Part shown: in pieces, positions 2 through 18,885 of the stretch
How the letters are laid out: each line of letters begins with the position of its first letter
Numbering within the stretch: the first letter of the stretch is position 1
Virus record (IMG/VR): IMGVR_UViG_3300025881_000099
Span: 1-21,337 of that record
Source of the DNA: a virus
Direction: 5' to 3' (one strand)
DNA length: 21,337 nt
The notes under the pieces: model-generated
What the model was told of the DNA's origin: nothing
What the model saw: only the letters and a program-made list of their open reading frames with translations
Databases searched by the model: none
Made by a program: the position numbers and the translations under genes

Positions 2-2335
2 TTTTTGGCAGACGGCGCTGTTATTAATCTCGGTGATGACCAAGATACAACACTAACTCATGTTGCAGATACAGGTATTCTTTTAAACAGTACAAGACAA
101 TTACAGTTTGGTGATTCAGGAACATACATTCATCAAAGTGCTGATGGCGTTTTAGACCTAGTATCAGACACAGAAATCGAAATTAATGCCACAACTATCG
201 ACATCAATGGTAATGTTGATATATCAGGTACAATCACTATTGGTTCTGCTGGAATATCAGAGGCAGAATTAGAGATTTTAGATGGTGCAAATGTTACAAC
301 TGCTGAACTAAACATAATAGATGGTGATACAAGTGCAACATCCACAACAGTTGCTGATGCTGATAGAGTTGTAATGAATGACAACGGAACTATGGTTCAA
401 GTTGCCGTTACAGACCTCGCCGCTTATTTTGATGACGAGATTACTGCTATGCCAAATCTTGTTACAACAGCTGCAACTACTGTCGGTGCATTAGACTCTG
501 GTTCAATTACTTCAGGCTTTGGTTCAATCGACAACGGCTCTTCTGCAATTACAACAACTGGTGCAATTACTGGTGGCGCATTAACTGTAGATGATGTTGC
601 TGTAAATGGTAAAGTTATTACAATGACTGGTTCTACTAGTGATACTGCAACATTAACAGTAGGTACTAACGGAACACTAGACATTGTAACTACTGACGAT
701 AACGCCGCAGCTGCAAATATTCAGATTACTGCTGACGGCACTGCTGAGATGGCAGGTACTACAGTTACTTTAGATTCATCTGGTGGTATTACTTTAGATG
801 CAGATGGCGGTACAATCACATTCGCTGATGGCGGTTCTTCACTTGGTACTATTACTTCAAGTGGTTACTCTGGAACGGCTGCTGTTGCAACGACTGTTAC
901 TGTTACGGACAACGAATCGACTAACGAAAATAATGTTATTACATTCGTTGCTGGTGCAGATGCAGATGGTGGTAATGTTGGACTTGAATCTGATGGCAAC
1001 TTAACATATAACCCAAGTACAGGAACACTATCGGCCACAAACCTTGTTGTTACTGGAACTCAAACTATTACCAATTCAGTAACAATGAACGCCAACAACG
1101 CTGTTGTGTTTGAAGGCGCAACTGCTGATGCACATGAAACAACTCTGACATCTGTTGATGCGACTGGCGATAGAACAATATCACTACCGAATGTATCAGG
1201 CACTTTACCTGTTCTTGCGGCTGCTTCTGCTACTGCAATTACTGCTACACCAGCAGAATTAAATTATGTGGATGGTGTTACAAGTGCAATTCAAACACAG
1301 TTAGATGCAAAACTAGCATTAGCTGGTGGCACTATGACAGGTAATATTGTAAGTGGAGATAATGTTAAAGCTACATATGGCGCAAGTGCTGACTTAGAGA
1401 TTTATCACGATGGTAGTGATAGTAAAATAGTCGATAAAGGTACAGGAAATCTGCTCCTTTTGACGAATGGTAATTTTTATGTACAGAATGAAGGTGGTAG
1501 TGAAACTATTATTAGAGGAGATGTTGATGGTTCAGTAGATTTATACTACAATAACTCTAAGAAATTTGAAACAACTAATACTGGTGCAACAGTAACAGGA
1601 ACACTTATAGCTGATTTAGCAGATGACTCAATTGATTCAGAACATTATGTGGATGGTTCTATTGACACAGCTCACCTATCTGCCGATTGTATTACAAATG
1701 CTAAGATTGCTAATGATGCTATTGACTCAGAACATTACACAGATGGTAGTATTGATGCCCAACATATAGCTAGTGAAGCAGTTACTACAGCTAAAATTGC
1801 TGGTGGTAATGTAACAACAGCCAAAATAGCAGATGATGCAGTAACTAATGATAAATTGTCTAATTCACTAGGTGATTTAAGTGGACACGGAGTCTCAGCA
1901 ATTGGTTTAGATGGTGGCGATTACATTGGTTGGAGTAATAATGCTCATGTGGGATTTGTAGTCAACGGTAACGAAGAAATGCGACTTGAGGCAGATGGTG
2001 ACTTACATGTTGACAATGATGTTATTGCTTTCTCAGGAACTATTTCAGATGAAAGACTAAAAGAAAACATACAACCTATTGAAGATGCACTATCTAAAGT
2101 CGGACAACTGCGTGGTATGACATTTACATATACACCAGATGGTAAAGAGTCTGCTGGACTTATTGCACAAGATGTCGAAAAAGTATTACCTTCGGCAGTA
2201 TCAGAAAAACAATTACCACTTAAACAAGATGACGGTCAAGAATACAAAGTTCTACAATACGACCAAACAATCGGTCTATTAGTAGAGGCAATCAAGGAGT
2301 TGACTGCAAAAGTCGAAAAACTGGAGAATAAATAA
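2..2335 (+). CDS. Tail fibre protein with C-terminal S74 chaperone domain (5' partial)
   Basis: This is the C-terminal part of a long trimeric tail fibre. The reading frame is open to the left edge, so the true start is outside the window; the in-frame TTG at 5 is probably internal. At least 777 codons are present. The body is low-complexity beta-rich repeat sequence (Thr, Ala, Gly, Asp) with ELN-type motifs, an EIYHDG module and an NSKKFETT module. About residues 539-620 hold tandem IDSEHY/AKIA repeats. The last ~95 residues are a peptidase S74 (endosialidase-type) intramolecular chaperone, with the conserved SDERLKENI motif; Ser681 (counting from position 5) is the expected self-cleavage site. 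It ends in a LxEAIKELTAKVEKLE coiled coil. In known fibres this domain trimerises the shaft and is then released. The stop overlaps the next start (TAATG). A central 703-base segment is shared with the second fibre. The family is clear; the receptor is unknown. Confidence 0.88.
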   Translation, partial: FLADGAVINLGDDQDTTLTHVADTGILLNSTRQLQFGDSGTYIHQSADGVLDLVSDTEIEINATTIDINGNVDISGTITIGSAGISEAELEILDGANVTTAELNIIDGDTSATSTTVADADRVVMNDNGTMVQVAVTDLAAYFDDEITAMPNLVTTAATTVGALDSGSITSGFGSIDNGSSAITTTGAITGGALTVDDVAVNGKVITMTGSTSDTATLTVGTNGTLDIVTTDDNAAAANIQITADGTAEMAGTTVTLDSSGGITLDADGGTITFADGGSSLGTITSSGYSGTAAVATTVTVTDNESTNENNVITFVAGADADGGNVGLESDGNLTYNPSTGTLSATNLVVTGTQTITNSVTMNANNAVVFEGATADAHETTLTSVDATGDRTISLPNVSGTLPVLAAASATAITATPAELNYVDGVTSAIQTQLDAKLALAGGTMTGNIVSGDNVKATYGASADLEIYHDGSDSKIVDKGTGNLLLLTNGNFYVQNEGGSETIIRGDVDGSVDLYYNNSKKFETTNTGATVTGTLIADLADDSIDSEHYVDGSIDTAHLSADCITNAKIANDAIDSEHYTDGSIDAQHIASEAVTTAKIAGGNVTTAKIADDAVTNDKLSNSLGDLSGHGVSAIGLDGGDYIGWSNNAHVGFVVNGNEEMRLEADGDLHVDNDVIAFSGTISDERLKENIQPIEDALSKVGQLRGMTFTYTPDGKESAGLIAQDVEKVLPSAVSEKQLPLKQDDGQEYKVLQYDQTIGLLVEAIKELTAKVEKLENK
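578..1280 (+). repeat. Long diverged repeat, copy A (in fibre 1)
   Basis: This segment aligns without an apparent length change to 7792-8494 in the second fibre gene. It runs from an ALTVDDVAVNGK motif to an ELNYVDG motif. Protein identity is very high: one 39-residue stretch is identical. About 22 of those 39 codons nevertheless differ synonymously, so this is an old or selectively maintained module rather than a fresh duplication. Confidence 0.85.
1619..1864 (+). repeat. Tandem imperfect IDSEHY/TAKIA repeats in fibre 1
   Basis: The encoded protein repeats a short theme: (S/A)IDSEHY-x-DGSID-x-x-H, followed by T-x-AKIA-x-D-A. IDSEHY occurs twice and AKIA-type units occur three times. These look like shaft units of a beta-structured fibre. 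The unit boundaries are my reading, not a computed alignment. Confidence 0.7.
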
Positions 2336-3321
2336 TGGCATTAGCAAACTCAGGACAACTATCTATAAAAGATATATCAGATGAGTTCGGCGGAGATGAA
2401 CCTGATGCGTTAAGTGAATACTATGATGCGGCTTCTGGAGTTCCATCTTCTGGAGAACTAACAGTATCAGACTTTTATGGCACATCAGCTGCAATCAGTT
2501 TAACAATTTCAAGCTCACAATTAAACTTCGACCTGTATGACGCTTTAGATTCCGCAGGCCACAGTAGTTCTGAGATTGCAGGCAATACTGTCTTTAATAT
2601 TACCATCAATAGTGGCGTAACTATGAAAGGTTCTAGTACGGCAGGCAACAATACTCGATTAGGAAATTATAACTATCAATCTAGTAGTATTGGTTCAGAC
2701 CATGGCGATTCAGGTAATGGTGGTTCAGGAAGTCCAGAAAGAGTGCCTTGGGGTGGACAAAGTCAAAGAGCGGGAACATCTCGTGGTTGTCTAACTATTG
2801 AAGGCTTACCAAATAGTGCAACATTTAATATTGTAAATAACGGAACATTTGAGGGCGGTTCAGGAATGGGCGGACACGGACCTCACAATAATCACGGACC
2901 TTGGCACGGACATTATCAACATGTAAGTGGGGGTACTGGAGGAGCTGGTGTTGTGGCAATCGACCAAGACAGTTGTACTATAAACATCACTAACAACGCA
3001 ACCATGAAAGGTGGTGGCGGGGGTGGTGCTGGTGGCGGCTGGGGTGCAGGACATAACAATTGTTGTCCTAAATGGGGTGGCGATGGTGCAGGACACAATC
3101 GTAGTGCTCAAGGTGGCGATGGTTCTTCTCACGGCGGTAACGCTGGTGGTTCTGGGGGCGGTTTTGGAAGTAACGGAAGTGATGTTGGTGGTAATTCAGT
3201 AAATGGTCTAGGCGGACCGTTAGTAGAACTTCGCTCATGTTCTAGTACATCTGTGAATGCCTCTGGTGGAACTAATACTGTAAATACTACTACAAGAAGC
3301 ACTAGTAGCTGGAGAAGTTAA
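2335..3321 (+). CDS. Glycine-rich gp38-like tail-fibre adhesin candidate
   Basis: A 328-aa protein probably sits at the tip of the preceding fibre. Residues 1-52 form a small N-terminal domain (SGQLSIKDI, FGG, LSEYYDA, SSGELTVSDFYG) that recurs in the other glycine-rich protein here at 9499. Residues ~60-130 are Ser/Thr/Asn-rich. From ~130 to ~295 the chain is dominated by Gly, with NNGTFEGGSG and NNATMKGGGG blocks. This resembles the polyglycine loops of T2/S16-type gp38 adhesins, which cap gp37. A His-rich patch (GGHGPHNNHGPWHGHYQH, ~residues 180-197) and a Cys pair (NNCCPKWGG) are unusual. The gene follows an S74 fibre in TAATG overlap, as gp38 follows gp37. The adhesin role is inferred from composition and position. 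There is no signal peptide or membrane segment. Confidence 0.6.
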   Translation: MALANSGQLSIKDISDEFGGDEPDALSEYYDAASGVPSSGELTVSDFYGTSAAISLTISSSQLNFDLYDALDSAGHSSSEIAGNTVFNITINSGVTMKGSSTAGNNTRLGNYNYQSSSIGSDHGDSGNGGSGSPERVPWGGQSQRAGTSRGCLTIEGLPNSATFNIVNNGTFEGGSGMGGHGPHNNHGPWHGHYQHVSGGTGGAGVVAIDQDSCTINITNNATMKGGGGGGAGGGWGAGHNNCCPKWGGDGAGHNRSAQGGDGSSHGGNAGGSGGGFGSNGSDVGGNSVNGLGGPLVELRSCSSTSVNASGGTNTVNTTTRSTSSWRS

Positions 3322-3378: not shown

Positions 3379-4863
3379 ATGAAAGTAGACAAAATCACAA
3401 TAATAGGTGGTGGTAGTGCAGGTTGGATGTCTGCCGCTTCGCTAATAAACGCATTCCCCGATAAAGAAATAATTGTAGTAGAATCTCCTGATTTTCCTAC
3501 AATTGGTGTTGGTGAAAGCACACTACAATACATTCGACCATGGATGTATAGTCTTGGAATAAAAGACGAAGATTGGATGGACGCCTGTAATGCAACTCAC
3601 AAGATATCAATAAGATTTGAAAACTGGGATGGCAAAGGCGGACACTTTCACTATCCATTTGGTATGCCTCAATATGCAGATGATACTGATTTTGATTATT
3701 ATAATTTCAGTAGATTAGCAGAAGATGTGCCAGACAACGAATGGGCAGAAGTTTTCTTTCCGGCCGCACTTATGGCAGAGAACAATCTTTTAGTTGAAAG
3801 AATGGAAGGTTGGGATTTAAAACAAAACTCTGCTTATCATTTTGATGCGGTCAAGTTTGCACAATGGTTAAAAAATGAATACTGCCTTCCTAGAGGCGTA
3901 AAAATTATTAGTCAAACTGTATATGCGATTGATACTAATAATCAAGGTATCGAAAGAATTCATTGTGATGTTGCTTCTCCTGGTGTGCCTTTTAGAGCTG
4001 ATAATGCACTCACATCTGATTTGTGGATAGATTGTACAGGATTTAAAGCACTATTAATGAATGCTATTGGTAGTAAATTTAGAGATTATGGTGGTGGGTT
4101 AGTAAACGATAGTGCTTGGGTAACACAACTTCCTGAAAGTTATCCAAATCAGTATCATACAAACTGCACTACATTAAACAACGGTTGGGTTTGGAATACA
4201 CCAACTGCAAATAGAACAGGAACAGGATATGTTTTTTCTAGTAGATATGTTGATAATGACCAGGCACTAGAAGAATTTAAAGAACATCTGAATAGAGATG
4301 ATGAGTTACAGTTTAGATTATTAACTTGGAAACATGGCAGACAAGAAAGAATGGCAAAACAAAATGTTGTTGCAATAGGGTTGGCTGCAGGGTTTATAGA
4401 ACCATTAGAGTCTGGTGGGTTATTAACTACACACGAATCACTTAATACGCTTGTCAAGTGCTTACAACGAGGTGTGTTTAATGGTGGTGAGAAGGCTGCA
4501 TTTAATTACGCCATGGGAAATAGATTTGATGATTTTGCAGACTTTGTAGTAATGCACTATCAGTATGCTACAAGAGATGATACACCATATTGGAAAGATG
4601 CACACCTTCATAAACTAAAGAACAATAATGCGGCCGATGAGTTTTATACATCTACACACAAAGAGAGTAGAGTTATTCCGTTCAATGCACACTATAACGC
4701 AATTGCATTTGGACAAGGATTAAATACTGTATCTAATTATGATGTTAAGTTTGAAGAACTGTTTGGTAATCCAGGTATGCTTGAAGATGGTAAAAAGTTT
4801 AGAGAATGGATATTAAAACGACAAGAAGGGTGGTTAAAATATATTAAAGAAAACGCTATATGA
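3379..4863 (+). CDS. Flavin-dependent tryptophan halogenase-like protein
   Basis: A 494-aa homologue of PrnA/RebH-type halogenases, which use FADH2, oxygen and halide to chlorinate or brominate tryptophan or other indoles. Residues 8-20 are the FAD-binding GGGSAGWMSA motif, and GVGEST follows at 43-48. Lys75 in the NATHKISIRF context aligns with the catalytic lysine (PrnA Lys79). GFIEPLES at 338-345 supplies Glu344-Ser345, matching the PrnA Glu346 region. The halogenase-specific WxWxIP motif is WVWNTP at 270-275, with Ile replaced by Thr. Length is close to that of the family (about 500-540 aa). The substrate cannot be told. No good Shine-Dalgarno precedes the ATG. The gene overlaps the next by four bases (ATGA), so a linked function with that oxygenase is likely. 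Related halogenase-like genes are known in marine T4-like phages. Confidence 0.85.
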   Translation: MKVDKITIIGGGSAGWMSAASLINAFPDKEIIVVESPDFPTIGVGESTLQYIRPWMYSLGIKDEDWMDACNATHKISIRFENWDGKGGHFHYPFGMPQYADDTDFDYYNFSRLAEDVPDNEWAEVFFPAALMAENNLLVERMEGWDLKQNSAYHFDAVKFAQWLKNEYCLPRGVKIISQTVYAIDTNNQGIERIHCDVASPGVPFRADNALTSDLWIDCTGFKALLMNAIGSKFRDYGGGLVNDSAWVTQLPESYPNQYHTNCTTLNNGWVWNTPTANRTGTGYVFSSRYVDNDQALEEFKEHLNRDDELQFRLLTWKHGRQERMAKQNVVAIGLAAGFIEPLESGGLLTTHESLNTLVKCLQRGVFNGGEKAAFNYAMGNRFDDFADFVVMHYQYATRDDTPYWKDAHLHKLKNNNAADEFYTSTHKESRVIPFNAHYNAIAFGQGLNTVSNYDVKFEELFGNPGMLEDGKKFREWILKRQEGWLKYIKENAI

Positions 4864-5468
4864 TAGTAGAAAGTAACTTTTTAAGTGGCGATGAACAAGA
4901 CAAAATTGACAATCAAATAATAAACGGCCAGTTTTTTCCCTGGTATAGAATGCCATATTCTAGTTCTATGGACTACCCATTCTACGGACATGTATTAGCA
5001 ACTAGACAAGACAAAAATGAGAATATTATTTCTGACCCCATTATGTCAGATTGGTACTGGTTCTTTAAACCTATATTTGAAAGGTTTATAAATAAGCATG
5101 AGATATTTAAAGGTAAGTACACAGTATTAAGGGCATGTCTAAACGATTCACTATCTTTTGAAGATGAATTTTGTGACCCACATGTTGACTATGATGAGCC
5201 ACACACAGTACTGATACTATATTTAACAGACAGCAGTGGCGCAACAATCATATATGATAAGAAGTTGCAAGAAGGCGAGTCTACTGTGTATTTAAATAAA
5301 GATGGTGATTCTGGTTTAAAAGTAGAACATGAAGTAGAGCCTGAAAGGGGCAAGATGATGTGTTTTGATGGATTAAAATTTCATTCAGTTCGTTTTAAAC
5401 AAGATGATGAAAGACGAATAATATGTATTTTTGCAGTTAAAGGAGAATTAAATGGCATGGTTTTATAA
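4860..5468 (+). CDS. 2OG-Fe(II) oxygenase family protein
   Basis: A 202-aa protein with the double-stranded beta-helix signature of 2-oxoglutarate/Fe(II) dioxygenases. His108-x-Asp110 (PHVDYDEPH) forms the first part of the metal triad, and His175 (GLKFHSVRF) completes it. Arg185 or Arg186 in the following ERRIICIF strand is a good candidate for 2-oxoglutarate binding. This family usually hydroxylates or demethylates amino-acid side chains, small molecules or nucleic acids; the target here is unknown. The start overlaps the halogenase stop (ATGA), so the two are probably translated together. Its 3' end carries the AAAGGAG ribosome site of the next gene. It is not closely similar to the second oxygenase at 18271 outside the metal motifs. 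Confidence 0.72.
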   Translation: MIVESNFLSGDEQDKIDNQIINGQFFPWYRMPYSSSMDYPFYGHVLATRQDKNENIISDPIMSDWYWFFKPIFERFINKHEIFKGKYTVLRACLNDSLSFEDEFCDPHVDYDEPHTVLILYLTDSSGATIIYDKKLQEGESTVYLNKDGDSGLKVEHEVEPERGKMMCFDGLKFHSVRFKQDDERRIICIFAVKGELNGMVL

Positions 5469-5994
5469 CGGTAAACAAATTTATGGTGCTTGGACAGATG
5501 GATATGGTGTTGAACATCCTGCCGACTGGGAAACAGCATGGTCTGATGCAGAAAAAAAGAAAGTTGGCCTTATAAGCAGAGGAACACTTAACGACAGATT
5601 TTTTGACGAAGATGGAGAAAAACATTCTGTAGATTACATTCAGGCTCACGAAGAAGTCAGGATGCAAGGACTATTAGCAATGATTTTAGGACAAACAATG
5701 TCTGATACTATTAGTGAGTCCGATGGTGAAACATTAGTACAGATACCGGCAGAGATTGTTGCCAAAAGAGAACAAGCACAAGAATCATGTGCTGAAGCAA
5801 TAAGGTTAATTAAAGCAACTGGTTCTTTTGATGGGTTGTGGGATTTATTTATGAATAGTGATGTATTAGTATATGGGGTTCATGTACCTAAAGACTCTGG
5901 TTTATGGGGTGTTAAGGGAGATAGAACTAATGAAGCTAAAGGCGTAGGGTACACAGGATATACATCAAGAAGGACAAGAGTTAAAGGTTTTTAG
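5452..5994 (+). CDS. Unrecognised 180-aa phage protein
   Basis: I do not recognise this protein. It is 180 aa, acidic in the middle and basic at the end (SRRTRVKGF). It has an aromatic N-terminus (MAWFYNGKQIYGAWTDGYG) and a central helical part around residues 65-125 (QAHEEVRMQGLL, AEIVAKREQAQESCAEAIRLI). The C-terminal GLWGVKGDRTNEAKGVGYTGYTSRR region is Gly/Tyr rich. There is no signal peptide or transmembrane segment. A strong AAAGGAG six bases before the ATG and a 17-base overlap with the oxygenase gene support the start and indicate co-expression. It could be a small virion protein or an accessory factor for the enzymes upstream; nothing in the sequence decides between them. Confidence 0.7.
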   Translation: MAWFYNGKQIYGAWTDGYGVEHPADWETAWSDAEKKKVGLISRGTLNDRFFDEDGEKHSVDYIQAHEEVRMQGLLAMILGQTMSDTISESDGETLVQIPAEIVAKREQAQESCAEAIRLIKATGSFDGLWDLFMNSDVLVYGVHVPKDSGLWGVKGDRTNEAKGVGYTGYTSRRTRVKGF

Positions 5995-6267: not shown

Positions 6268-6275
6268 TATAAATA
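6268..6275 (+). promoter_or_regulatory. T4-type late promoter, upstream copy (TATAAATA)
   Basis: A perfect TATAAATA box starts four bases after the zinc-ribbon stop codon and 40 bases before the second fibre gene. A second perfect box follows with its start 12 bases downstream. Either or both could be read by the gp55/gp33-type late sigma system if the phage has one. Confidence 0.6.
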
Positions 6276-6279
6276 TGAG

Positions 6280-6287
6280 TATAAATA
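6280..6287 (+). promoter_or_regulatory. T4-type late promoter, downstream copy (TATAAATA)
   Basis: A perfect TATAAATA match lies 28 bases before the ATG of the second fibre gene. That spacing is identical to the boxes before 3379 and 13456, so this copy is the better candidate for the functional one. An AAAAGGA ribosome site lies between it and the ATG. Confidence 0.7.
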
Positions 6288-6315: not shown

Positions 6316-9300
6316 ATGCCATATTTAGGAAAAGCTCCAGCTAACGGATTTCATGCGAAACAACAGATTTCGGGTGATGGAAGCACAACTACCTTTGCAC
6401 TGGACTATACGGTTTCCCATGATACCGCCATAATAGTTTCAGTCGACGGAACGATTTTAGAACCTGCTCACGGATTCAGTCTTGCTGGCGGCGGAACTAA
6501 CATAGTTTTTACAACTGCACCTGCAAGTAATGTAAGAACTTATATTCAATTTTTAGGAACGGCCGTTTCGACAAATTTTTCAGATGTAAATGGGGCGTCA
6601 TTTATTTTAGATGCTGATGGAGATACATCTTTTACTGCTGATACTGATGATGAGATTGATATTGAAGTTGGTGGTGCAGATAGAATTACAATTAAGACAG
6701 ATGGTTCTCACCATGTTGATAGTGTAAAAACAGTCTACGGCACTGGTGATGATATGTCAATATATCACGATGGCACAAACTCCTTTATAACAAACACAAA
6801 CGGTGCATTAAAGCTTGCAACAGAAACATCAGGTATTGCAGTTAGTATTGGCCACACAACTTCTGAAGTTACAGTCAACGACAATCTAACTGTTACAGGT
6901 ACACTAACAGTTGGCGGCACAGTTAATTTTGGCGACTTCGATATTACAAATGTTGGTTCAATCGCACTAGACACAATCACAAATGATGGTACAGACATCA
7001 CTTTAGATTCTAGTGGTGATATTATATTAGACTCTGATGGTGCAGATGTTATCTTTAAAGATGCTGGTACCGAAATTAGTAGATTTACAAACTCAAGTAG
7101 TGATTTCATTATTAAGAGTGCCGTATCTAACAAAGATATGGTATTCAAAGGTAATGATGGTGGTGCGGAAGTTACTGCACTTACATTAGATATGTCTGCT
7201 GCTGGTGCGGCTACATTTAATGATAAGATTGTTGCTACAGAATTAGACATTTCGGGTGATATAGATGTAGATGGAACTGCAAACTTAGATGTTGTAGATA
7301 TTGACGGCGCTGTAAATATTGCAGCTGCAACAACAATGTTGGGAACTCTAACAGTTGGCGCTGATGACTCTGGTCATGATGTAATCTTCTATGGTGCTAC
7401 TGCAAGTGCTAACATGACTTGGGATGAGTCAGTAGACGACTTAATTTTAAATGGTGCCGCTAGAATAGTAGTACCAGACGGGCAACTAGTTCTTGGTTCA
7501 ACTGCTGTTACTTCAACGGCTGCAGAATTAAATTTATTAGATGGAGTTTCTGGACTGGTTCAGGGAGATTTCACTAAACTTGCGGCTCTTGATGCTACTG
7601 CGGCTGAACTAAATCTAATGGATGGCGGTTCTACTGTTGGAACAACTGCGTTTGCTGATGGCGATGGAATTGTTACTAATGATGGCGGTACAATGCGACA
7701 GACAAGTGCAACGACACTTAAAACTTATATGTCTGATTTGACATTAACAACAGCTGCTCAAACAAATATTACAAGTGTTGGCACATTGACGGCACTAACT
7801 GTTGATGATGTTGCTGTAAATGGTAAAGTCATTACAATGACTGGCTCATCTTCTGATACTGCGACATTAACTGCTGGCACAAACGGAACACTAGACATTG
7901 TTACTACAGATGATGCTGGTGCGGCTGCGAATATACAAATTACTGCTGATGGTACGGCAGAACTTGCTGGTACTACAGTTACTTTAGATTCATCTGGCGG
8001 AATCACACTTGATGCAGATGGTGGCACAATCACATTTGCAGATGGTGGTTCTTCATTAGGCACAATAACTTCATCTGGATATAGTGGTACAGCTGCTGTT
8101 GCAACAACAGTTACTATTACAGACAATGAATCAACTAACGAAAACAATGCAATCATCTTTACTGCTGGTGGTGATTTAGATGGCGGTAACTTAGGGTTAG
8201 AATCAGATGGCACATTAAATTATAATCCAAGTACAGGTACACTAACTTGTACAAACCTCGTTACTTCTGGAACACATACTGTTACTAACTCTGTAACAAT
8301 GAACGCAAGTAATGCCGTTGTCTTTGAGGGTTCTACTGCTGATGCAAACGAAACAACTTTAACGAGTGTAGATGCAACGGCTGACCATACGATATCATTA
8401 CCAAATCAATCAGGAACACTTCCTGTTCTTGCAGCTGCTTCAACAACACAAATTACTTCGACACCTGAAGAAATCAATCTAATAGATGGCGGTACTGCAA
8501 GAGGTACAACTGCACTTGCTTCTGGTGATGGTATTCTAATTAATGATGGTGGTACAATGCGTATGACCAATGTTGATACTGTAAGAACATATATGGAAGC
8601 TGATTCTTTACAGAAGGCCGGTGGCACTATGACAGGTGATTTAATACTTGGTGATAATGTCAAGTTAGAAGTTGGTTCTGCCAGTGGTGGTGATTTACAA
8701 ATTTATCACGATGGCGGTGAAAGTTATGTTTCTGACCAAGGCACTGGTGCATTATATGTTGCAACTAATGAATTAAAAGTTACTAACGCAGCCATCTCTG
8801 AAAATATGATAACCGCTGCTGAAAATGGTGCAGTAAGTCTTTTTTACGATAACTCTAAGAAATTTGAAACCACTTCTGCTGGTGCAACTGTAACGGGTGT
8901 CTTAACAGCAGACGGCGGTATTGATGTTGATAACATCCATATTGATGGTCAAGAAATAGATGTAAGTTCAGGCGATTTAACAATTGATGTTGCTTCAGAT
9001 ATTGTTCTTGATGCAGATGGTGGTAAGATAAAATTATCAGACGCTGGAACTCAATGGGGTGAACTTTTCAACAATAGTGGATTTCATCTTATTTCTAAAG
9101 TATCTGACCAAGATGTCGTAGTCAAAGGTAACGATGGTGGTTCAGAGATAACTGCACTTACGATAGATATGTCTGCTGCTGGTGCGGCCACATTTAACAA
9201 TGATGTAACTGCTTTCTCTGATGCTAGACTGAAAGAGAATGTAGAAACAATCGATAATGCATTAGATAAAGTTTGTGCAATGCGTGGTGTTACATTTGAT

Positions 9301-9495
9301 AGAATTGACAGTACAGAAAGTGGAAGGCAAATGGGTGTTATTGCACAAGAAATACAAGACATTGTGCCTGAAGTTGTTAAAGTTAATGGTGACGAAGATA
9401 AGACACTTTCAGTATCGTATGGTAATATGGTTGGTGTTTTAATCGAAGCAATAAAAGAATTAAAAGAAGAAATAAAAGAATTAAAAGGAGAGTAA
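6316..9495 (+). CDS. Long tail fibre protein with S74 chaperone domain
   Basis: A complete 1059-aa tail fibre. The N-terminus (residues 1-90: GKAPANGF, SGDGSTTTFALDY, VDGTILEP, YIQFLG) is a small beta domain that I take to be the virion-attachment end; it is common in marine phage fibres. Residues ~95-960 are repetitive beta-rich shaft with ELNLLDG and QIYHDG modules and an NSKKFETT module. A ~56-residue unit is repeated within it, near residues 247-303 and 907-962. Residues ~966-1059 form the S74 chaperone. FSDARLKENVETI places the self-cleavage serine at Ser968, and the end is a Lys/Glu coiled coil. The central 703 bases match fibre 1. An AAAAGGA ribosome site and two late promoters precede it. 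It is followed after three bases by a glycine-rich protein, mirroring fibre 1. The receptor is unknown. Confidence 0.9.
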   Translation: MPYLGKAPANGFHAKQQISGDGSTTTFALDYTVSHDTAIIVSVDGTILEPAHGFSLAGGGTNIVFTTAPASNVRTYIQFLGTAVSTNFSDVNGASFILDADGDTSFTADTDDEIDIEVGGADRITIKTDGSHHVDSVKTVYGTGDDMSIYHDGTNSFITNTNGALKLATETSGIAVSIGHTTSEVTVNDNLTVTGTLTVGGTVNFGDFDITNVGSIALDTITNDGTDITLDSSGDIILDSDGADVIFKDAGTEISRFTNSSSDFIIKSAVSNKDMVFKGNDGGAEVTALTLDMSAAGAATFNDKIVATELDISGDIDVDGTANLDVVDIDGAVNIAAATTMLGTLTVGADDSGHDVIFYGATASANMTWDESVDDLILNGAARIVVPDGQLVLGSTAVTSTAAELNLLDGVSGLVQGDFTKLAALDATAAELNLMDGGSTVGTTAFADGDGIVTNDGGTMRQTSATTLKTYMSDLTLTTAAQTNITSVGTLTALTVDDVAVNGKVITMTGSSSDTATLTAGTNGTLDIVTTDDAGAAANIQITADGTAELAGTTVTLDSSGGITLDADGGTITFADGGSSLGTITSSGYSGTAAVATTVTITDNESTNENNAIIFTAGGDLDGGNLGLESDGTLNYNPSTGTLTCTNLVTSGTHTVTNSVTMNASNAVVFEGSTADANETTLTSVDATADHTISLPNQSGTLPVLAAASTTQITSTPEEINLIDGGTARGTTALASGDGILINDGGTMRMTNVDTVRTYMEADSLQKAGGTMTGDLILGDNVKLEVGSASGGDLQIYHDGGESYVSDQGTGALYVATNELKVTNAAISENMITAAENGAVSLFYDNSKKFETTSAGATVTGVLTADGGIDVDNIHIDGQEIDVSSGDLTIDVASDIVLDADGGKIKLSDAGTQWGELFNNSGFHLISKVSDQDVVVKGNDGGSEITALTIDMSAAGAATFNNDVTAFSDARLKENVETIDNALDKVCAMRGVTFDRIDSTESGRQMGVIAQEIQDIVPEVVKVNGDEDKTLSVSYGNMVGVLIEAIKELKEEIKELKGE
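7054..7224 (+). repeat. Internal fibre repeat, unit 1
   Basis: Encodes a unit running from FKDAGTEISRF to KGNDGGAEVTALTLDMSAAG-type sequence. It recurs near the end of the same protein at 9034-9201. The last ~24 residues of the two units differ at only about three positions. This suggests duplication of a shaft module. Confidence 0.75.
7792..8494 (+). repeat. Long diverged repeat, copy B (in fibre 2)
   Basis: This is the counterpart of 578-1280 and has the same length by my end points. The protein is nearly the same while synonymous positions are heavily changed. After the shared segment the two fibres diverge (IQTQLDAK in fibre 1, GTTALASGDG in fibre 2), then partly rejoin at AGGTMTG. Confidence 0.85.
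9034..9201 (+). repeat. Internal fibre repeat, unit 2
   Basis: Second copy of the shaft unit found at 7054-7224. It lies directly before the S74 domain and contains GNDGGSEITALTIDMSAAG. It is one codon shorter than unit 1 by my end points. Confidence 0.75.
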
Positions 9496-9498
9496 TAT

Positions 9499-10419
9499 AT
9501 GGCAATACCTAGTTCAGGTTCTTTAGCATTATCTGCCATTCAAACAGAATGGGGAGGCTCAAATCCAATTGGAATGAGTGAGTACTATGGTGATGGAGAT
9601 TATCTTCCAGACGGTGCCGCTGATGGCGATGGCAATGCTGTACCAGAAAGTGGTGCGATAGATATGTCTGATTGGTATGATACGGCGAACGCAACTTATA
9701 CAGGGGCAACTGGTGGAAGTGTATCAACTTCAGGCGACTATAAGATTCATACATTTAACTCATCTGGAACATTTGCTGTTTCTAGTGTGGGTAATGATGC
9801 TGGAAGTGGTAGTAGTGTAGAATATGTAATTGTTGCTGGTGGAGGCGGGGGCGGCGGCTCTGGTTCTTCTGGTGGCGGTTCAGGTGGCGGCGGTGGTGGA
9901 GGCTACGGCTCAGGTAACTACACAGTTTCAGCAGGAAACTATAGTATAGGTATTGGTTCTGGTGGTGCTGGTCATAACGGTTCAAGAGGCTCGAATGGTG
10001 GTAACACGACTGGATTTGGAATAACAAGAAATGGCGGCGGCGGTGGTGGTAAACGCTACTCAAACTGTACTTCTGGTGGTTCAGGTGGTGGTGCTGGATT
10101 CGATTATACATCTGGTTGTTCTGGAATTAGTGGACAAGGAAACCCTGGAGGCCCTGCAAATGTATGGACACAATCTCCTTGGAGAGGTGGTGGAGGCGGA
10201 GGCGCTGGTGGTTCTGGTGCACTTCATACAGGCGGTAACGGAACTGCAAGTTCTATAACAGGAAGTTCAATCACTAGAGCATCTGGTGGCGGAGTTGATG
10301 GTGGTTCAAGTCAATCTGCAAATACTGGACATGGTGGTCGTGGTTCATCTAATGACGCCTGTTGTGGCGGAACTGGTGGTTCGGGCATTATGCTTATCAG
10401 ATATAAATATCAAAACTAA
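9499..10419 (+). CDS. Glycine-rich tail-fibre adhesin candidate 2
   Basis: A 306-aa protein that shares its N-terminal domain style with the protein at 2335: SSGSLALSAIQTEWGG, MSEYYGDG, SGAIDMSDWYDT (residues 1-70). Next comes a short beta segment (YKIHTFNSSGTFAVSS, ~85-100) and YVIVAGGGGGGG at ~109. From there to ~295 it is a glycine-rich domain with GGGG runs separated by AGHNGSRGSNGG-type loops and two Cys pairs or singles. The end, GGSGIMLIRYKYQ, is a closing motif I recognise from marine phage glycine-rich proteins. It follows the second S74 fibre after three bases with an AAAAGGAG ribosome site, so it is placed like gp38 after gp37. The role as receptor-binding tip is inferred from this parallel. 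Confidence 0.65.
   Translation: MAIPSSGSLALSAIQTEWGGSNPIGMSEYYGDGDYLPDGAADGDGNAVPESGAIDMSDWYDTANATYTGATGGSVSTSGDYKIHTFNSSGTFAVSSVGNDAGSGSSVEYVIVAGGGGGGGSGSSGGGSGGGGGGGYGSGNYTVSAGNYSIGIGSGGAGHNGSRGSNGGNTTGFGITRNGGGGGGKRYSNCTSGGSGGGAGFDYTSGCSGISGQGNPGGPANVWTQSPWRGGGGGGAGGSGALHTGGNGTASSITGSSITRASGGGVDGGSSQSANTGHGGRGSSNDACCGGTGGSGIMLIRYKYQN
10402..10409 (+). promoter_or_regulatory. Possible late promoter inside the end of adhesin 2 (TATAAATA)
   Basis: A perfect TATAAATA lies in the last codons of the glycine-rich gene, 22 bases before the ATG at 10432. It also encodes part of the conserved RYKYQN ending, so it could be coincidental coding sequence. The spacing differs from the 28 bases seen elsewhere. 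Confidence 0.4.
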
Positions 10420-10776: not shown

Positions 10777-10804
10777 GTAAAATTTAAATTATGAAGGAGT
10801 GTAT

Positions 10805-11749
10805 ATGTGGAATGAAGCTAGTTATTCATTACCAATTCTATTCGGTACTGAGCAATCATTAAATCATTTAAAATCACTAAAAGAAATATCCCGACTTAAA
10901 TTTCAACACAATCTTCCTATACAAAATCTATATGGTTCACCGTCAGATGCTGTTTGGAATGGTGGTAGAAATTTAGAAAATGCTGAAATTTGGAGATTTT
11001 TTGAAGGCGATATTGAAAGATATTTTCGATATGCATCCGAACTGTTAGACACCAATTTATTCTTAACTTTCTCAAATCATTTAGCAGGCGACTATTTGAA
11101 TGACGAAGTTTCAAATCTTGTCTTAAATAATCTTATTGCATTAAAAGACAAAAACAACGGGGTTATTATTTCTGATGATAGACTATTAGACTACATAAAA
11201 GGAATAACAGACAACATAACCACGAAAGCATCCATACTTAAAAGCACAGTAGAGAAGCCTCTAAGGAGAAGTGTTGAGTATTACAATGAGTTACTTGCTA
11301 GATATGATATATTGTGTTTACATCCTGATGATAATCAGAATTTAGAATTAATTAGTAAGCTAGATGATGTGTCAAGGGTAGAAATTTTAGTTGATGAAAG
11401 ATGTACTGCTGATTGTAGAGTAAGAGATAAACACTACATATATTTGAATGAATCAAATGTTCCTCATATGAAAGGTGAGGCTATGGAAAAAGAATCAAAC
11501 CTATTAAAGAAGCAATGTTTGAAAAATAGGTATGTCAACGACCCTGTAAAGAATTTTAAGTCGACACTTGCAGTCTTAAAACACGGAGAAATAGAACAAC
11601 TATATAATATAGGGATTCGTAAATTTAAGGCTTCTGGAAGAGGCGATTATATAATGGAAACTATGGCGATTAATAAGTTCTTAGATATGGCAGTTGTAGA
11701 TGAAGATGAGAGAATAGAATTGACATATTCAGGATTTGGTATGGGTTAA
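10805..11749 (+). CDS. U32-peptidase-like (UbiU/V-type) TIM-barrel protein
   Basis: A 314-aa protein. I chose the ATG at 10805 because AAGGAG (10793-10798) is six bases upstream; a GTG at 10799 would touch that site. Features of the peptidase U32 family are visible: YGSPSDAVWNGGR near residue 40, a VLNNLI...GVIISDDRLLDYI segment near 110-135, EILVDERC-x3-C-x2-R-x2-HY with Cys200, Cys204 and His210-Tyr211, a further Cys238, and GIRKFKASGR near residue 275. In bacterial relatives such as UbiU/UbiV, conserved cysteines hold a 4Fe-4S cluster, and the proteins act in O2-independent hydroxylation or RNA modification rather than proteolysis. Whether a cluster forms here is unknown. It lies directly before the carbamoyltransferase, suggesting a joint pathway. 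The family call is from memory of motifs and needs a profile search. Confidence 0.55.
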   Translation: MWNEASYSLPILFGTEQSLNHLKSLKEISRLKFQHNLPIQNLYGSPSDAVWNGGRNLENAEIWRFFEGDIERYFRYASELLDTNLFLTFSNHLAGDYLNDEVSNLVLNNLIALKDKNNGVIISDDRLLDYIKGITDNITTKASILKSTVEKPLRRSVEYYNELLARYDILCLHPDDNQNLELISKLDDVSRVEILVDERCTADCRVRDKHYIYLNESNVPHMKGEAMEKESNLLKKQCLKNRYVNDPVKNFKSTLAVLKHGEIEQLYNIGIRKFKASGRGDYIMETMAINKFLDMAVVDEDERIELTYSGFGMG

Positions 11750-11765
11750 TAATGGAGAATTTGTA

Positions 11766-13409
11766 ATGAGAGTTTTAGGTGTAGCGCCGTTTCATGACAG
11801 CTCAGTTGCTGTGATTGATAATGGTGTATTAGAATATTTTTGTAAAGAAGAAAGACTATCGAGAGTTAAAAGAGATAAGATGCCTTTTAAGGCGATAGCA
11901 GAAGCAGTAAAACACGCTAAAGGTCCTATTGATATGTGTGTTATAGCATCGCCCACAGGGTATGATGGCTCAAATAATGACTTGCAAATGTATCTGGAAA
12001 AAATAACCGATTGTCAAATATTCAAAAGAATGTGTGATAATCATCATAAGGTGCATGCCGCTAACGCTTTTTATAATTCTGGATTTGATAAGGCAATGGT
12101 TTTGATTGCTGACAGAACAGGGTCATATATAGAGAGATTTAGAGAAGCAGAAAGTGTTTATACAGCAGAATATCCTGCTAAGTTTACACCATTATATAAG
12201 AGTTATTTTTTATTGCATAAGGGTATAGACCATGACATAGAGAATGATATATTAGCAGAGTATCTAAAAGAAAAACACAATTGTGATATATCGGCATCTT
12301 CAACAATGGGACTAGTTCAGGCATATGAAAGTGCGACAACTCTAATAGGCCAAGACCCTTTAGAGAATGGTAAGACAATGGGGTTATCTGCTTATGGTGA
12401 TAAAGAAAATATAACACCAGACTTATTTTATGAAAATGTAGTTAATGATTCAAAATTTCTCTTTTGTGGTAGAGGAGAAACCGTTTTAAATGTTAATAAC
12501 AAACATCAATTTGTTAATGAAGTAACACGAGAAAATCATAAACTATATGCTGATTACGCCCTTAGTGTTCAACTACAAACACAAGAAGTTGTTGGCAACT
12601 TAATAGAAAAGTATATTAAAAGAACTGACACTAAGAATGTTTGTATAACAGGGGGATATGGTTTCAATGTAGTTTGTAATCAATATCTGACAGATAGATT
12701 TCCTGATTTAGAGTTTTATTTTGAGCCTTTGGCTGATGATTCTGGAAATTCTATAGGGGCCGCAAATTATGTTTGTAGAAAGGCCACAGAAATATCAGAT
12801 ATAATACCTTTAACACATACATTTTTTAATCATGTTGAACCGACTATACCTTCTGATATAGGAGAACATGTTACAGTAGAACAGATTGCTGAATACTTAA
12901 AAGAAGGTAAGATTATTGCAATGTTTAATGGTCAGGCAGAAGCAGGCCCTCGTTCATTAGGCAATCGTTCTATATTGTTTGATGCAAGAATTAAAAACGG
13001 TAAAGGCATTATTAATAATATAAAACGGAGAGAGTGGTATAGGCCTTTTGCCTGTTCAGTATTAGAAGAAGATGCGAATGAATATTTTGATATGGGAAGA
13101 ACAATGAAATCCCCATTTATGACATCATCTTTTAATATAAGACCAGAATATAAAGATTCTTTCCCAGCAATAACACATGTTGATGGCACTTGTAGAATAC
13201 AGACAGTAGATGAAAGTGTGCCACATTTTAAAGAAATACTTGAAAAATTTAAAGATATTACAGGAACAGGCATGTTGTTAAACACCAGCTTCAACCTGGC
13301 AGGCGAACCTTTAGTAGATTCGTTTGAAGATGCAATAAGAACTTGTAATAGTACAGAGATAGATTTTCTGTGGTTACCAGATAAAGGGGTGATTTTGAAG
13401 TTTTCATAA
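11766..13409 (+). CDS. NodU/CmcH-family carbamoyltransferase
   Basis: A 547-aa O-carbamoyltransferase-like protein. The ATG at 11766 has GGAG eight bases upstream and yields the family's typical start, MRVLGVAPFHDSSVAVIDNG; an in-frame TTG at 11736 is less likely. The N-terminal Kae1-like domain shows FHDSS, EERLSRVKRD, NHHKVHAANAFY (the iron/ATP-site histidines), GKTMGLSAYG, ITGGYGFNVVCNQ and DDSGNSIGAAN. The C-terminal YrdC-like domain shows GPRSLGNRS at 394-402, KRREWYRPFACSVL and LLNTSFNLAGEPLVDS. Known members move a carbamoyl group from carbamoyl phosphate, via carbamoyl-AMP, onto hydroxyls of Nod factors, antibiotics or sugars. The substrate here is unknown; a surface glycan or small molecule is plausible. 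The usual DGxGE after the histidine motif appears as ADRTGS. Similar genes occur in marine T4-like phages. Confidence 0.88.
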   Translation: MRVLGVAPFHDSSVAVIDNGVLEYFCKEERLSRVKRDKMPFKAIAEAVKHAKGPIDMCVIASPTGYDGSNNDLQMYLEKITDCQIFKRMCDNHHKVHAANAFYNSGFDKAMVLIADRTGSYIERFREAESVYTAEYPAKFTPLYKSYFLLHKGIDHDIENDILAEYLKEKHNCDISASSTMGLVQAYESATTLIGQDPLENGKTMGLSAYGDKENITPDLFYENVVNDSKFLFCGRGETVLNVNNKHQFVNEVTRENHKLYADYALSVQLQTQEVVGNLIEKYIKRTDTKNVCITGGYGFNVVCNQYLTDRFPDLEFYFEPLADDSGNSIGAANYVCRKATEISDIIPLTHTFFNHVEPTIPSDIGEHVTVEQIAEYLKEGKIIAMFNGQAEAGPRSLGNRSILFDARIKNGKGIINNIKRREWYRPFACSVLEEDANEYFDMGRTMKSPFMTSSFNIRPEYKDSFPAITHVDGTCRIQTVDESVPHFKEILEKFKDITGTGMLLNTSFNLAGEPLVDSFEDAIRTCNSTEIDFLWLPDKGVILKFS

Positions 13410-13419
13410 ATTGGTTGTT

Positions 13420-13427
13420 TATAAATA
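13420..13427 (+). promoter_or_regulatory. T4-type late promoter (TATAAATA)
   Basis: A perfect late-promoter box lies in the 46-base gap after the carbamoyltransferase. It is again exactly 28 bases before the next ATG (13456). It would drive the run of structural genes leading into gp13. Confidence 0.7.
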
Positions 13428-15860: not shown

Positions 15861-16667
15861 ATGGCAACCCCAAGTACAAGAGAAACATTAAAACAATACT
15901 GTCTTAGAAACTTAGGTAAACCTGTTATCGACATAAATGTTGATGACGACCAAGTAGAAGATAGAATTGACGAAGCACTACAGTATTTCGCACAGTATCA
16001 TGTTGATGGTGTTGAGAGAATGTATCTAAAGTATCTAGTAACGGCAGACGATATTACTCGTATGACGACTGACGCTTCTGAATCAGTAACAGAAAATTCT
16101 ATAACAACCACATACAAAAGAGCTGATAACTATCTTGTTGTTCCTTCTTCAGTTGTTTCTGTTGTTAATGTGTTTCCATTATCAGACAGAGCAAATCTAA
16201 ACATGTTTGATGTAAGATATCAGTTAAGACTAAATGACTTGTACGATTTCTCATCAACAAGTATTGTTCACTATGAAATGACAATGCGACACTTAGACTT
16301 TCTTGACCACATATTAGTGGGTGAGAAGCCAATGAGATTTAATCAACTCTCAAACAGATTATATATTGATATGGATTGGGGAACTGATATTACTGCTGGC
16401 GAATACTTAATCTTTGAAGTTTATCGCAAAGTAGACCCAGACACATACACAGACCTTTATGATGACATCTATCTAAAAAGATATCTGACTGCACTTATCA
16501 AAAGACAATGGGGTCAAAACTTATCTAAATTCTCAGGCACAGCGATGCTCGGTGGCGTAACGCTTAACGGACCTGAATTGTTTTCTTCTGCGATTGATGA
16601 ACAACAAAGACTTGAAGAAGAAATCAGACTCAATTATGAAGAACCACCACACATGCAACAGGGATAA
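15861..16667 (+). CDS. gp13: gp13 neck (head completion) protein
   Basis: A 268-aa homologue of T4 gp13, which joins gp14 to build the neck connecting the filled head to the tail. The diagnostic N-terminus is visible: TRETLKQYCLRNLGKPVIDINVDDDQVEDRIDEAL, then QYFAQYHVDGVERMY. Further on are FPLSDRANLNMFDVRYQLRLNDLYD and the conserved end region LKRYLTALIKRQWGQNLSKFSG-x-x-x-GGVTLNG. It is somewhat shorter than T4 gp13 (309 aa). It is followed by gp14 and gp15 exactly as in T4, which makes the assignment strong. An AAAGGA ribosome site lies eight bases before the ATG. Confidence 0.9.
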   Translation: MATPSTRETLKQYCLRNLGKPVIDINVDDDQVEDRIDEALQYFAQYHVDGVERMYLKYLVTADDITRMTTDASESVTENSITTTYKRADNYLVVPSSVVSVVNVFPLSDRANLNMFDVRYQLRLNDLYDFSSTSIVHYEMTMRHLDFLDHILVGEKPMRFNQLSNRLYIDMDWGTDITAGEYLIFEVYRKVDPDTYTDLYDDIYLKRYLTALIKRQWGQNLSKFSGTAMLGGVTLNGPELFSSAIDEQQRLEEEIRLNYEEPPHMQQG

Positions 16668-16671
16668 CTAA

Positions 16672-17439
16672 ATGCCAACTAATGTCTATTTCGACACCGG
16701 CACCACTTCAGAACAAAGATTATACGAAGATTTAATAATCGAACAACTGAAGATATATGGTCAGGATGTCTATTATCTACCAAGAAAAATAGCGAACAAA
16801 GACACAATCTTTGGTGAGGACCCTGCGAGCTCGTTTGACGATTCATACATCATTGAAATGTATGTCGATAACTCTGATGGTTACATGGGCGAACAAGAGA
16901 TTATTAAGAAGTTTGGCCTAGAACTCAGAGATGACATTCAGTTTACAGTATCTAAGTTAAGATGGGAAACTCTAGTAGGCAACAATTCAGACTTAGTTAC
17001 AGAACGCCCTCAAGAAGGCGACTTAGTTTACTTCCCGACTACGAAGAAATTCTTTGAGATTCAATTCGTAGAACACGAAGCGCCATTCTATCAACAGAGT
17101 GCGTTGCCAGTTTACAAACTATCTTGTACTACATTTGAGTATAGTTCTGAAAGACTCGATACTGGTATTGCTTCTATTGACCAGACAGAAGATGACTTAT
17201 CAACTGACACAATGCAGTTTCAGTTCTCACTAGAAAACGAAACTGGTTCATTCGTATTAGAATCAAGTATTGGTGCGATTGACTACTTTGTCAATGAGGA
17301 CTTCACTATGGCGACTCAACAACCTGTTGACATGGGACAAATCTTTGAAACACAGGCAGGCACGAATACGGCATCAACGACTGATGACATACTCGACTTT
17401 AGTGAAAGAAATCCATTTGGGGAGGTTGACGACTACTAA
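16672..17439 (+). CDS. gp14: gp14 neck protein
   Basis: A 255-aa protein, nearly the length of T4 gp14 (256 aa). Conserved marks are YGQDVYYLPRKIANKDTIFGEDPASSF (residues 31-56), MYVDNSDGYMGEQEIIKKFGLELRD, EGDLVYFPTTKKFFEIQFVE followed by APFYQQ, and a C-terminal ERNPFGEVDDY. All line up in order with T4 gp14. gp14 and gp13 close the head portal after packaging and form the tail docking surface. It starts four bases after gp13 and its stop overlaps gp15 (TAATG), so the two are coupled. Confidence 0.92.
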   Translation: MPTNVYFDTGTTSEQRLYEDLIIEQLKIYGQDVYYLPRKIANKDTIFGEDPASSFDDSYIIEMYVDNSDGYMGEQEIIKKFGLELRDDIQFTVSKLRWETLVGNNSDLVTERPQEGDLVYFPTTKKFFEIQFVEHEAPFYQQSALPVYKLSCTTFEYSSERLDTGIASIDQTEDDLSTDTMQFQFSLENETGSFVLESSIGAIDYFVNEDFTMATQQPVDMGQIFETQAGTNTASTTDDILDFSERNPFGEVDDY

Positions 17440-18251
17440 TGTTTGGAGAACACTTTTACCACAAACAAATTCGCAATACTGTAATTGCGTTCGGTACGAT
17501 ATTTAATAATATTCATATCAAACGCTTAGATTCTAGCGGGAATCCTTTACAGAATATTAAAGTACCTTTGTCTTACTCGCCAAGGGAAAAGTTTATTGCA
17601 CGACTAGAACAACAAGCGAGTTTAACTGGAACAGATTCAAGTGTGGCTATTACTCTACCTCGTATGTCATTTGAAATCAATGGTTACAGTTATGATGCTT
17701 CTCGAAAGTTAAACAAGAATCAAAAGAGAGGCGTTGTTACAACAAATGCAGACACAACAAAACTAAACACACAATACTCGCCTGTGCCTTATGATGTGAG
17801 TTTTTCGTTAAGTGTGTTTACATCTAATTCAGATGACGGCCTACAGATTGTTGAACAAATACTGCCATATTTTCAACCAGATTACACAGTAACAATGATT
17901 GAAAATTCTACAATGGATACAAAGAGAGATATACCTTTCATATTAGAAAATGTAGGTTATGACGATTCGTATGCAGGTGACTTGACAACGACAAGACGAA
18001 TTGAGTATACTCTAAACTTTACTGCAAAGATATATCTGTATGGTCCAATCAGTACATCTGCTGTTATCAAAACAGTATCAGCAGACTTATATGCTGACTC
18101 ATCTGACCAAAGTCCATCTCGAAGTGAAAGAGTTACAGTTACTCCTAATCCAACAAGTGCTGATAAAGATGACACATACACATATACTACAACATTAGAT
18201 TTCTTTAATGATGGTTTAAACTATGATGAAGAAACGGGTAATGATGTTTAA
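17439..18251 (+). CDS. gp15: gp15 proximal tail sheath stabilisation protein
   Basis: A 270-aa protein matching T4 gp15 (272 aa) in length and place. It begins MFGEHFYHKQIRNTVIAFGTIFNNIHI and has KVPLSYSPREKFIAR (the conserved block near residues 41-55), ITLPRMSFEI and a PYDVSFSLSVFTSNSDDGLQIVEQILPYFQPDYTV segment. gp15 forms a hexameric ring at the head-proximal end of the tail that locks the sheath and tube and binds gp14. The start overlaps the gp14 stop. The next genes in T4 are gp16 and gp17; here a foreign oxygenase gene intervenes. Confidence 0.93.
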   Translation: MFGEHFYHKQIRNTVIAFGTIFNNIHIKRLDSSGNPLQNIKVPLSYSPREKFIARLEQQASLTGTDSSVAITLPRMSFEINGYSYDASRKLNKNQKRGVVTTNADTTKLNTQYSPVPYDVSFSLSVFTSNSDDGLQIVEQILPYFQPDYTVTMIENSTMDTKRDIPFILENVGYDDSYAGDLTTTRRIEYTLNFTAKIYLYGPISTSAVIKTVSADLYADSSDQSPSRSERVTVTPNPTSADKDDTYTYTTTLDFFNDGLNYDEETGNDV

Positions 18252-18270: not shown

Positions 18271-18885
18271 ATGATTGATTATAAAATTATTGACAATGTA
18301 TTAGACCCTGAAATATACTATGATTTAAAAGCATGGATTGAATCAAATACATTTCACTGGTATCATTATGGCGCTGTAACATATCGTGGCGATAGTTCTA
18401 AAAATGTGATAGATTCTAAGTATGGTGTTAGAAAACCTGAAGATTTTAAAGACGAGCGTAAGCATTTAAATTTACCACCAGAATGGCCAATTGAAGATTT
18501 AACAGAAGAAGAATCAGATTATGATTTTATGTTAGGTCATAGAGTCTATGCAGATAATGTAATTCTCACAAACGAGATGACATGGAATAAAATTAGGCCT
18601 ATTATGAATATGCTTAAAATGAAGTCATTAATAAGATGTGGTGTTAATTATTATCCAAAAACACACAAAATACTTAATCATTCATATCATACTGATTTCC
18701 CATTTGAACATAAAGGTGCTTTATTTTACATAAATGATAATGATGGATTAACTATACTAGAAGATGGTACTGAAATTGAGGGTGTTGGAAATAGACTTTT
18801 ATTATTTGATGCAAGTAGACCTCATCATAGTACAACATGCACAAACGCAACAAGAAGATTGAATATTAATTTTAATTATTTTTAA
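18271..18885 (+). CDS. 2OG-Fe(II) oxygenase family protein (second)
   Basis: A 204-aa protein with a clear dioxygenase metal motif. His140-Thr-Asp142 (NHSYHTDFPFEH) and His185 or His186 (SRPHHSTTCT) form the Fe(II) triad. Arg195/Arg196 in ATRRLNINFNYF is the likely 2-oxoglutarate contact. Strands such as GALFYINDNDGLTILEDGTEI and NRLLLFDAS complete the double-stranded beta-helix. Proteins of this type with a terminal RLNINFN motif are common in marine T4-like phages; their targets are mostly unknown. It has an AAAAAGGA ribosome site, and a TTTAAATA late-box-like string lies 16 bases upstream of its ATG. It is an insertion between gp15 and gp16. It is not a copy of the oxygenase at 4860. Confidence 0.78.
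   Translation: MIDYKIIDNVLDPEIYYDLKAWIESNTFHWYHYGAVTYRGDSSKNVIDSKYGVRKPEDFKDERKHLNLPPEWPIEDLTEEESDYDFMLGHRVYADNVILTNEMTWNKIRPIMNMLKMKSLIRCGVNYYPKTHKILNHSYHTDFPFEHKGALFYINDNDGLTILEDGTEIEGVGNRLLLFDASRPHHSTTCTNATRRLNINFNYF

Follow-up and report, generated by a model that had tools for sequence, protein, structure and literature searches.

Characterised flavin-dependent halogenases (FDHs) have mostly small molecules as substrates. The active site of the cyanophage enzyme VirX1, the iodinating halogenase of Syn10 (PDB 6QGM), is described as large and accessible, and the enzyme accepts bulky substrates (PMC8407142); a natural substrate for it did not turn up in the literature searched. So far the explanations offered for halogenases and 2OG oxygenases of cyanophages have been speculative: the halogenases were connected with antibiotic protection (PMC2984593, on PrnA; PMC9964418, on S-CREM1) or with metabolite halogenation (PMC10452541), and the oxygenases with nitrogen sensing or DNA repair (PMC3037559). 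In jumbo cyanophages such as S-SSM6a, a halogenase, 2OG oxygenases and a carbamoyltransferase lie in one region, as in the locus described here; that cluster was published as a secondary-metabolite or capsule system, and the accessible portion of the paper does not discuss linkage to a fibre tip (Iyer et al. 2021, PMC7824862).

QhpG is a halogenase-like flavoprotein that acts on protein-bound Trp (PMC7876137). QhpG and LodB, both FDH-like flavoproteins acting on protein Trp, gave weak profile matches to the halogenase of this locus, but these fall far below the family cut-offs, and both proteins serve cofactor formation without halide chemistry and with other partners. Pam3 gp24 and T-even gp38 are small Gly-rich proteins that end a series of fibre genes, as the tip protein does here, and the Gly-rich domain of the Pam3 cyanophage fibre has been assigned to receptor recognition (PMC9608196). 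The available parts of these sources mention no halogenase or oxygenase partner, and they describe the distal loops of gp38 (PMC12892980) and Pam3 gp24 as hypervariable, whereas the His/aromatic loops of the tip studied here are conserved. A link between halogenase and fibre tip was not found in the literature searched, outside which most subscription journals lie, so that the linkage described below is unreported as far as could be searched.

The halogenase-oxygenase pair in its fibre module

The window, meaning the whole stretch of 21,337 nucleotides that was analysed, is a 21-kb IMG/VR contig of a marine phage, in which all main genes lie on the plus strand between 5 and 21038 (Table 1). 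A 47-kb contig (G002) is 99.5% identical to it over 18 kb. The closest isolates by gp15 are the Pelagibacter phages Mosig (56%) and HTVC008M (50%), and for this reason the host may be SAR11-like. The sequence-only reading had placed the halogenase and oxygenase between two fibre modules. Fibre genes do flank the pair, but it is better regarded as part of module 1, which comprises the fibre gene, a Gly-rich tip, the halogenase, the oxygenase and a gene of 180 codons; that reading had noted neither the separate tip gene ahead of the halogenase nor the third, overlapping gene behind the oxygenase.

Table 1. Features of the window, with coordinates along the whole stretch
Feature	Position	Strand	Basis or remark
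Tail fibre protein, module 1	5..2335	+	Start cut by window edge; PHROG tail fibre families, up to 4e-32
Gly-rich fibre-tip protein, 328 aa (proposed adhesin, proposed substrate)	2335..3321	+	Directly upstream of halogenase
Flavin-dependent halogenase, VirX1-like, 494 aa	3379..4863	+	Pfam, PHROG, VirX1 match, tree, predicted structure
FAD-binding GGGSAG, residues 10-15	3406..3423	+	Motif
Catalytic Lys75 (predicted)	3601..3603	+	Kept in 68/68 phage relatives
Catalytic Glu344 (predicted)	4408..4410	+	Kept in 68/68 phage relatives
ATGA stop/start overlap, halogenase/oxygenase	4860..4863	+	ATG at 4860, TGA at 4861-4863
2OG-Fe(II) oxygenase, 202 aa, PHROG 274 family	4860..5468	+	H108, D110, H175, R186
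180-aa protein, no assigned function	5452..5994	+	17-nt overlap with oxygenase gene; same position in relatives
Tail fibre protein, module 2 (paralogue of 5-2335)	6316..9495	+	Family f31
Second Gly-rich tip protein, His-poor, no halogenase directly after	9499..10419	+	PHROG 2295; composition
NodU-type carbamoyltransferase	11736-13409	+	Profile match
Homologues of T4 neck proteins gp13, gp14, gp15	15861-18251	+	
Second PHROG 274 2OG-Fe(II) oxygenase (H140-x-D142)	18271..18885	+	Between gp15 and terS homologues

The halogenase was recognized by Pfam PF04820 (338.7 bits, cut-off 21) and PHROG 2928 (450 bits), and it matches VirX1 with an E value of 3.5e-93; in the profile comparison VirX1 scored 730 bits and the next chain 414. 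An AlphaFold2 model (pLDDT 80.5, pTM 0.84) has a confident core and is weak around 201-205 and 418-463, and the top six Foldseek matches to it are all VirX1 chains. The window enzyme and VirX1 belong to one clade, together with the syn9 genes, and share one fold at 34-36% structural identity (TM 0.82-0.85). The FAD motif, Lys and Glu, which had been described as intact from the sequence, are all in place, and the syn9/Syn10-type halogenase gene likewise follows Gly-rich tips. The enzyme of the window, a predicted halogenase, differs from VirX1 in its length (494 versus 531 aa), in the WxWxIP motif, which at 270-275 reads WVWNTP with one deviating position instead of WVWNIP, and in its partner, a single oxygenase rather than a large array. 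The C-terminal region, where free-Trp enzymes carry their Trp-binding residues, aligns poorly and was modelled with low confidence. A free-tryptophan, pyrrolnitrin-type halogenase was considered and dropped because no pathway gene was found, the neighbours being virion and tailoring genes. No match to a defence-system model was found for the halogenase.

The ATGA coupling of the two genes that had been proposed is literal, and the HxD...H triad of the second enzyme is complete: H108-x-D110 and H175, the metal triad, and R186, the 2OG-binding residue, are 99-100% conserved among 94 homologues. The oxygenase matches PHROG 274 (1.4e-24) and PHROG 61 (2OG; 2.4e-4), and Pfam 2OG-FeII_Oxy_3 (PF13640) at 22.1 bits, under the cut-off of 27. 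Used as an IMG/VR query it returned the window's own phage only, and in the defence-system search a generic CRISPR-associated '2OG' model was the sole match. The label of PHROG 274, 'DNA endonuclease V', was rejected for this protein, which has no such Pfam domain and carries the HxD...H...R oxygenase motif instead. Related PHROGs are labelled 'minor coat protein' and 'ferrochelatase', yet the members encountered here either resemble 2OG-Fe(II) oxygenases or have them as neighbours, and much cyanophage annotation may therefore be misleading. Neither the 180-aa protein nor f6, a small protein encoded between tip and halogenase in other phages, was given a function by Pfam, PHROG, NCBIfam and PDB searches, and a comparison of the two found no relation.

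The tip protein has 71 Gly among its 328 residues, and its Gly-rich repeats follow the fibre gene, as in fibre adhesins of the PGII type. Invariant His/Trp/Cys loops (GGHGPxNNHGPWHG and GGGWGAGHNNCCPKWGGDGxGHNRS), shared with relatives, are among its best conserved parts. An AF2 model of a syn9-type Gly-rich tip (pLDDT 80, pTM 0.69) found its best structural match in the Pam3 fibre (7YPX), followed by the Bxb1 tail tip and the ALK/LTK Gly-rich domains.

Furthermore, the module is conserved where its surroundings are not. Between the window and G003, a 69%-identical relative, tip, halogenase and oxygenase align at 67-69% at the DNA level; beyond these three genes the match is limited to 63 bp of the following gene and a single stretch of 95 bp at another place, and the flanking fibre genes do not align. 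A dN/dS of ~0.12 for the halogenase and of ~0.18 for its partner in this comparison suggests that both enzymes are under purifying selection. For the tip dN/dS is likewise ~0.18; dS is close to saturation. The order tip-halogenase-oxygenase recurs in three further loci (L005, L095, L096). When the window-type tip alone was searched against IMG/VR, six loci were found, and all five with downstream DNA carry halogenase and 2OG genes. The pair is thus part of a fibre-tip gene module, and the sequence-only reading, which had staked its idea on co-occurrence of the pair in relatives, withstands this check.

Linkage of tip and halogenase genes in marine T4-like phages

Genetic linkage of tip, halogenase and oxygenase is near-invariant in marine T4-like phages, and the evidence for it is strong. 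Usually a long fibre gene comes first, and after it one to three Gly-rich tips (PHROG 863, Pfam Gly_rich_2), the small protein f6, one or two VirX1-type halogenases and an array of 2OG and JmjC oxygenases, followed in many by neck genes; some contigs have up to three more halogenases in convergent orientation. Cyanophage tip proteins alone retrieved 75 IMG/VR loci, some of them redundant contigs, and a halogenase lies downstream in the same orientation in 74, the remaining locus being cut off at the tip. Each of the 20 named phage records that have a syn9-type tip, from about nine lineages, also carries a VirX1-type halogenase. The converse search by halogenase alone, counted over loci with at least 3.5 kb upstream, gave a tip with 32 of 46 halogenases, or 32 of 36 without ten class II genes; the four tip-less class I halogenases among these 36 come from one lineage. 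In four whole genomes (syn9, S-CREM1, P-TIM40, S-RIM44), a tip lies at most four genes upstream of 7/7 VirX1-type (class I) halogenases and of 0/2 others, while 3.0-3.8% of all genes have one at that distance; 30 of the 52 2OG-type genes are within 10 kb of a tip-linked halogenase, with 5.6 expected. In the halogenase tree, tips accompany 71/81 rows of the VirX1-type clade, a share that is not unbiased because part of the rows came from tip searches. Exceptions to the linkage are S-B64, S-MbCM6 and S-SSM7 (the latter two on long branches) and the L018/L040/G006/G010 lineage. Class II halogenases of several cyanophages lie in metabolic-gene regions.

The linkage might also arise by hitchhiking, in which case the enzymes would act elsewhere and only share with the tip the variable region that lies between the fibre genes and the neck genes. 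That this region is variable is seen in S-RIM44, where a segment of ~10.7 kb in NC_047734, comprising the oxygenase array, two halogenases and three tips, has as its counterpart in KX349297 one oxygenase, a 121-aa gene and a protein of 294 aa that is not Gly-rich, adjoining neck-gene sequence of 95.3% identity. Tips, halogenases and 2OG array were thus swapped as one block between two isolates. Four S-RIM44 records without a tip, of which KX349297 was compared directly, have only a distant (27.5%) halogenase located elsewhere; other halogenases and many 2OG genes also occur elsewhere in these genomes. Linkage is not proof of substrate, because one recombination swaps adjacent genes together anyway. 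Against hitchhiking, the order tip-f6-halogenase persists even where tip identity falls to 43-50%, and tips of two distinct families (f42 of the window and f0 of syn9) precede the VirX1-type clade while other regional gene content turns over; class II shows no such arrangement (0/16). Hitchhiking is considered unlikely.

Several clusters depart in size or content from that of the window. In the virus contigs L062-L064 (G017), L059-L061 (G022) and L065-L066 (G014), a ~20-kb island located between the giant fibre and neck genes contains 4-5 halogenases together with 2OG/JmjC oxygenases, about a dozen of them. In S-SSM7 (L070:667-4009), the carbamoyltransferase/2OG/halogenase cluster, which also has a gene annotated as cysteine dioxygenase, is preceded by small tip-like paralogues with a very high content of Cys, Trp and His. 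The L018:321-16721 lineage combines a VirX1-type halogenase with a luciferase-like monooxygenase, a carbamoyltransferase and 2OG genes in place of a Gly-rich tip.

Proposed modification of the fibre tip

Such a tip gene almost never occurs without a halogenase, which hints at a chemical decoration by these phages of the very part with which they grip the host. The most economical explanation, to which we assign a probability of roughly 0.55, is that halogenase and oxygenase modify the fibre tip encoded directly upstream. In the proposed mechanism, the tip would be made late in the infected cell alongside other virion proteins, and the halogenase, using reduced FAD supplied by the host, would generate hypohalous acid, which Lys75 would deliver, assisted by Glu344, to aromatic or His residues exposed on the tip. 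The 2OG-Fe(II) oxygenase would hydroxylate the same tip, and the outcome would be a receptor-binding surface with chemistry beyond the 20 amino acids. The substrate, its residues, the halogen, late expression and a benefit in adsorption are what we infer.

The composition of the tips points to His. His makes up 5.2% of the Gly-rich regions of halogenase-linked tips and 1.9% of those of unlinked tips (p 2e-5; 60 versus 17 dereplicated tips, not independent). The test had been run first with 4 control tips and was repeated with 17, and it is conservative because three of these controls (two from L143, one from L041) probably come from halogenase loci that were truncated. Tyr differs little between the two groups, and Trp is weakly enriched (1.04 versus 0.47%, p 0.06). 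A Trp-specific target, the residue named by the sequence-only reading, is thus not supported by tip composition; the idea of modified virion tips fared better, with a linkage to fibre tips far stronger than could be told from the window. In larger clusters, the array includes a JmjC member (PF08007) nearest to the histidyl-hydroxylases NO66/MINA53. QhpG sets a precedent for a flavoprotein of this kind working on a protein, and the accessible active site of VirX1 and the resemblance of the syn9-type tip model to the Pam3 fibre also fit the proposal.

A different possibility is that the pair serves to synthesize or tailor a small molecule, or a component of the capsule or LPS, during infection, for example an antibiotic, a toxin or a superinfection shield. 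Proposals of this kind are in print (PMC2984593; the S-CREM1 paper PMC9964418; PMC7824862, in the part available), the window has a NodU-like carbamoyltransferase, and sugar enzymes are added in S-SSM7. However, a scan of the window genes showed none for an assembly line, a glycosyltransferase or a transporter, the gene with the tightest linkage encodes an adhesin-like tip and not a biosynthetic enzyme, and in S-SSM7 the cluster is itself bordered by gp13-15 and several small tip-like proteins. This possibility is considered rather unlikely. The targets might instead be molecules of the host surface, as had been raised from the sequence, or the receptor of the phage, their modification serving, e.g., to block superinfection or to stop progeny from binding debris. 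Such a role would explain the linkage to an adhesin too, because receptor and adhesin co-vary; a set of up to five halogenases and about a dozen oxygenases is at least as readily explained by a protein substrate with numerous sites, and modification of the host surface is deemed quite improbable.

Tip modification may extend beyond the window. The tip-linked enzyme sets range from one halogenase with one oxygenase to five halogenases with about a dozen oxygenases, and it is proposed tentatively, at somewhat less than even odds, that marine T4-like phages use them to halogenate and hydroxylate side chains of the receptor-binding tip, a non-genetic expansion of adhesin chemistry that would also be the native role of VirX1. 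The near-invariant linkage names one specific protein substrate, which makes the proposal testable on existing isolates (syn9, Syn10, S-CREM1). If true, a virus would post-translationally halogenate its own adhesin, with bearing on host range, adsorption and marine halogen chemistry.

Other features of the window

The fibre genes are repeated paralogues: 239-1281 and 7792-8478 are 78-81% identical between copies at the DNA level, and a third copy is present in G002. The second tip is followed by a 114-aa gene and then by one for 316 aa, which matches no family and overlaps the gene of the NodU-like carbamoyltransferase (10799-13409 together); this tip may have its own tailoring enzyme there. 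An NAD-dependent formate dehydrogenase at 19296-20492 (NCBIfam NF005750, 642 bits, cut-off 329) sits amid phage structural genes, followed directly by a PAP2-type phosphatase at 20493-21038. The T4 late-promoter core, TATAAATA, occurs 6 times in the window, where 2.4 occurrences would be expected, and those at 6268-6287, 10402-10409 and 13420-13427 fall within ~50 nt upstream of three gene starts. The sequence CATAAATA lies ~30 nt upstream of the halogenase start.
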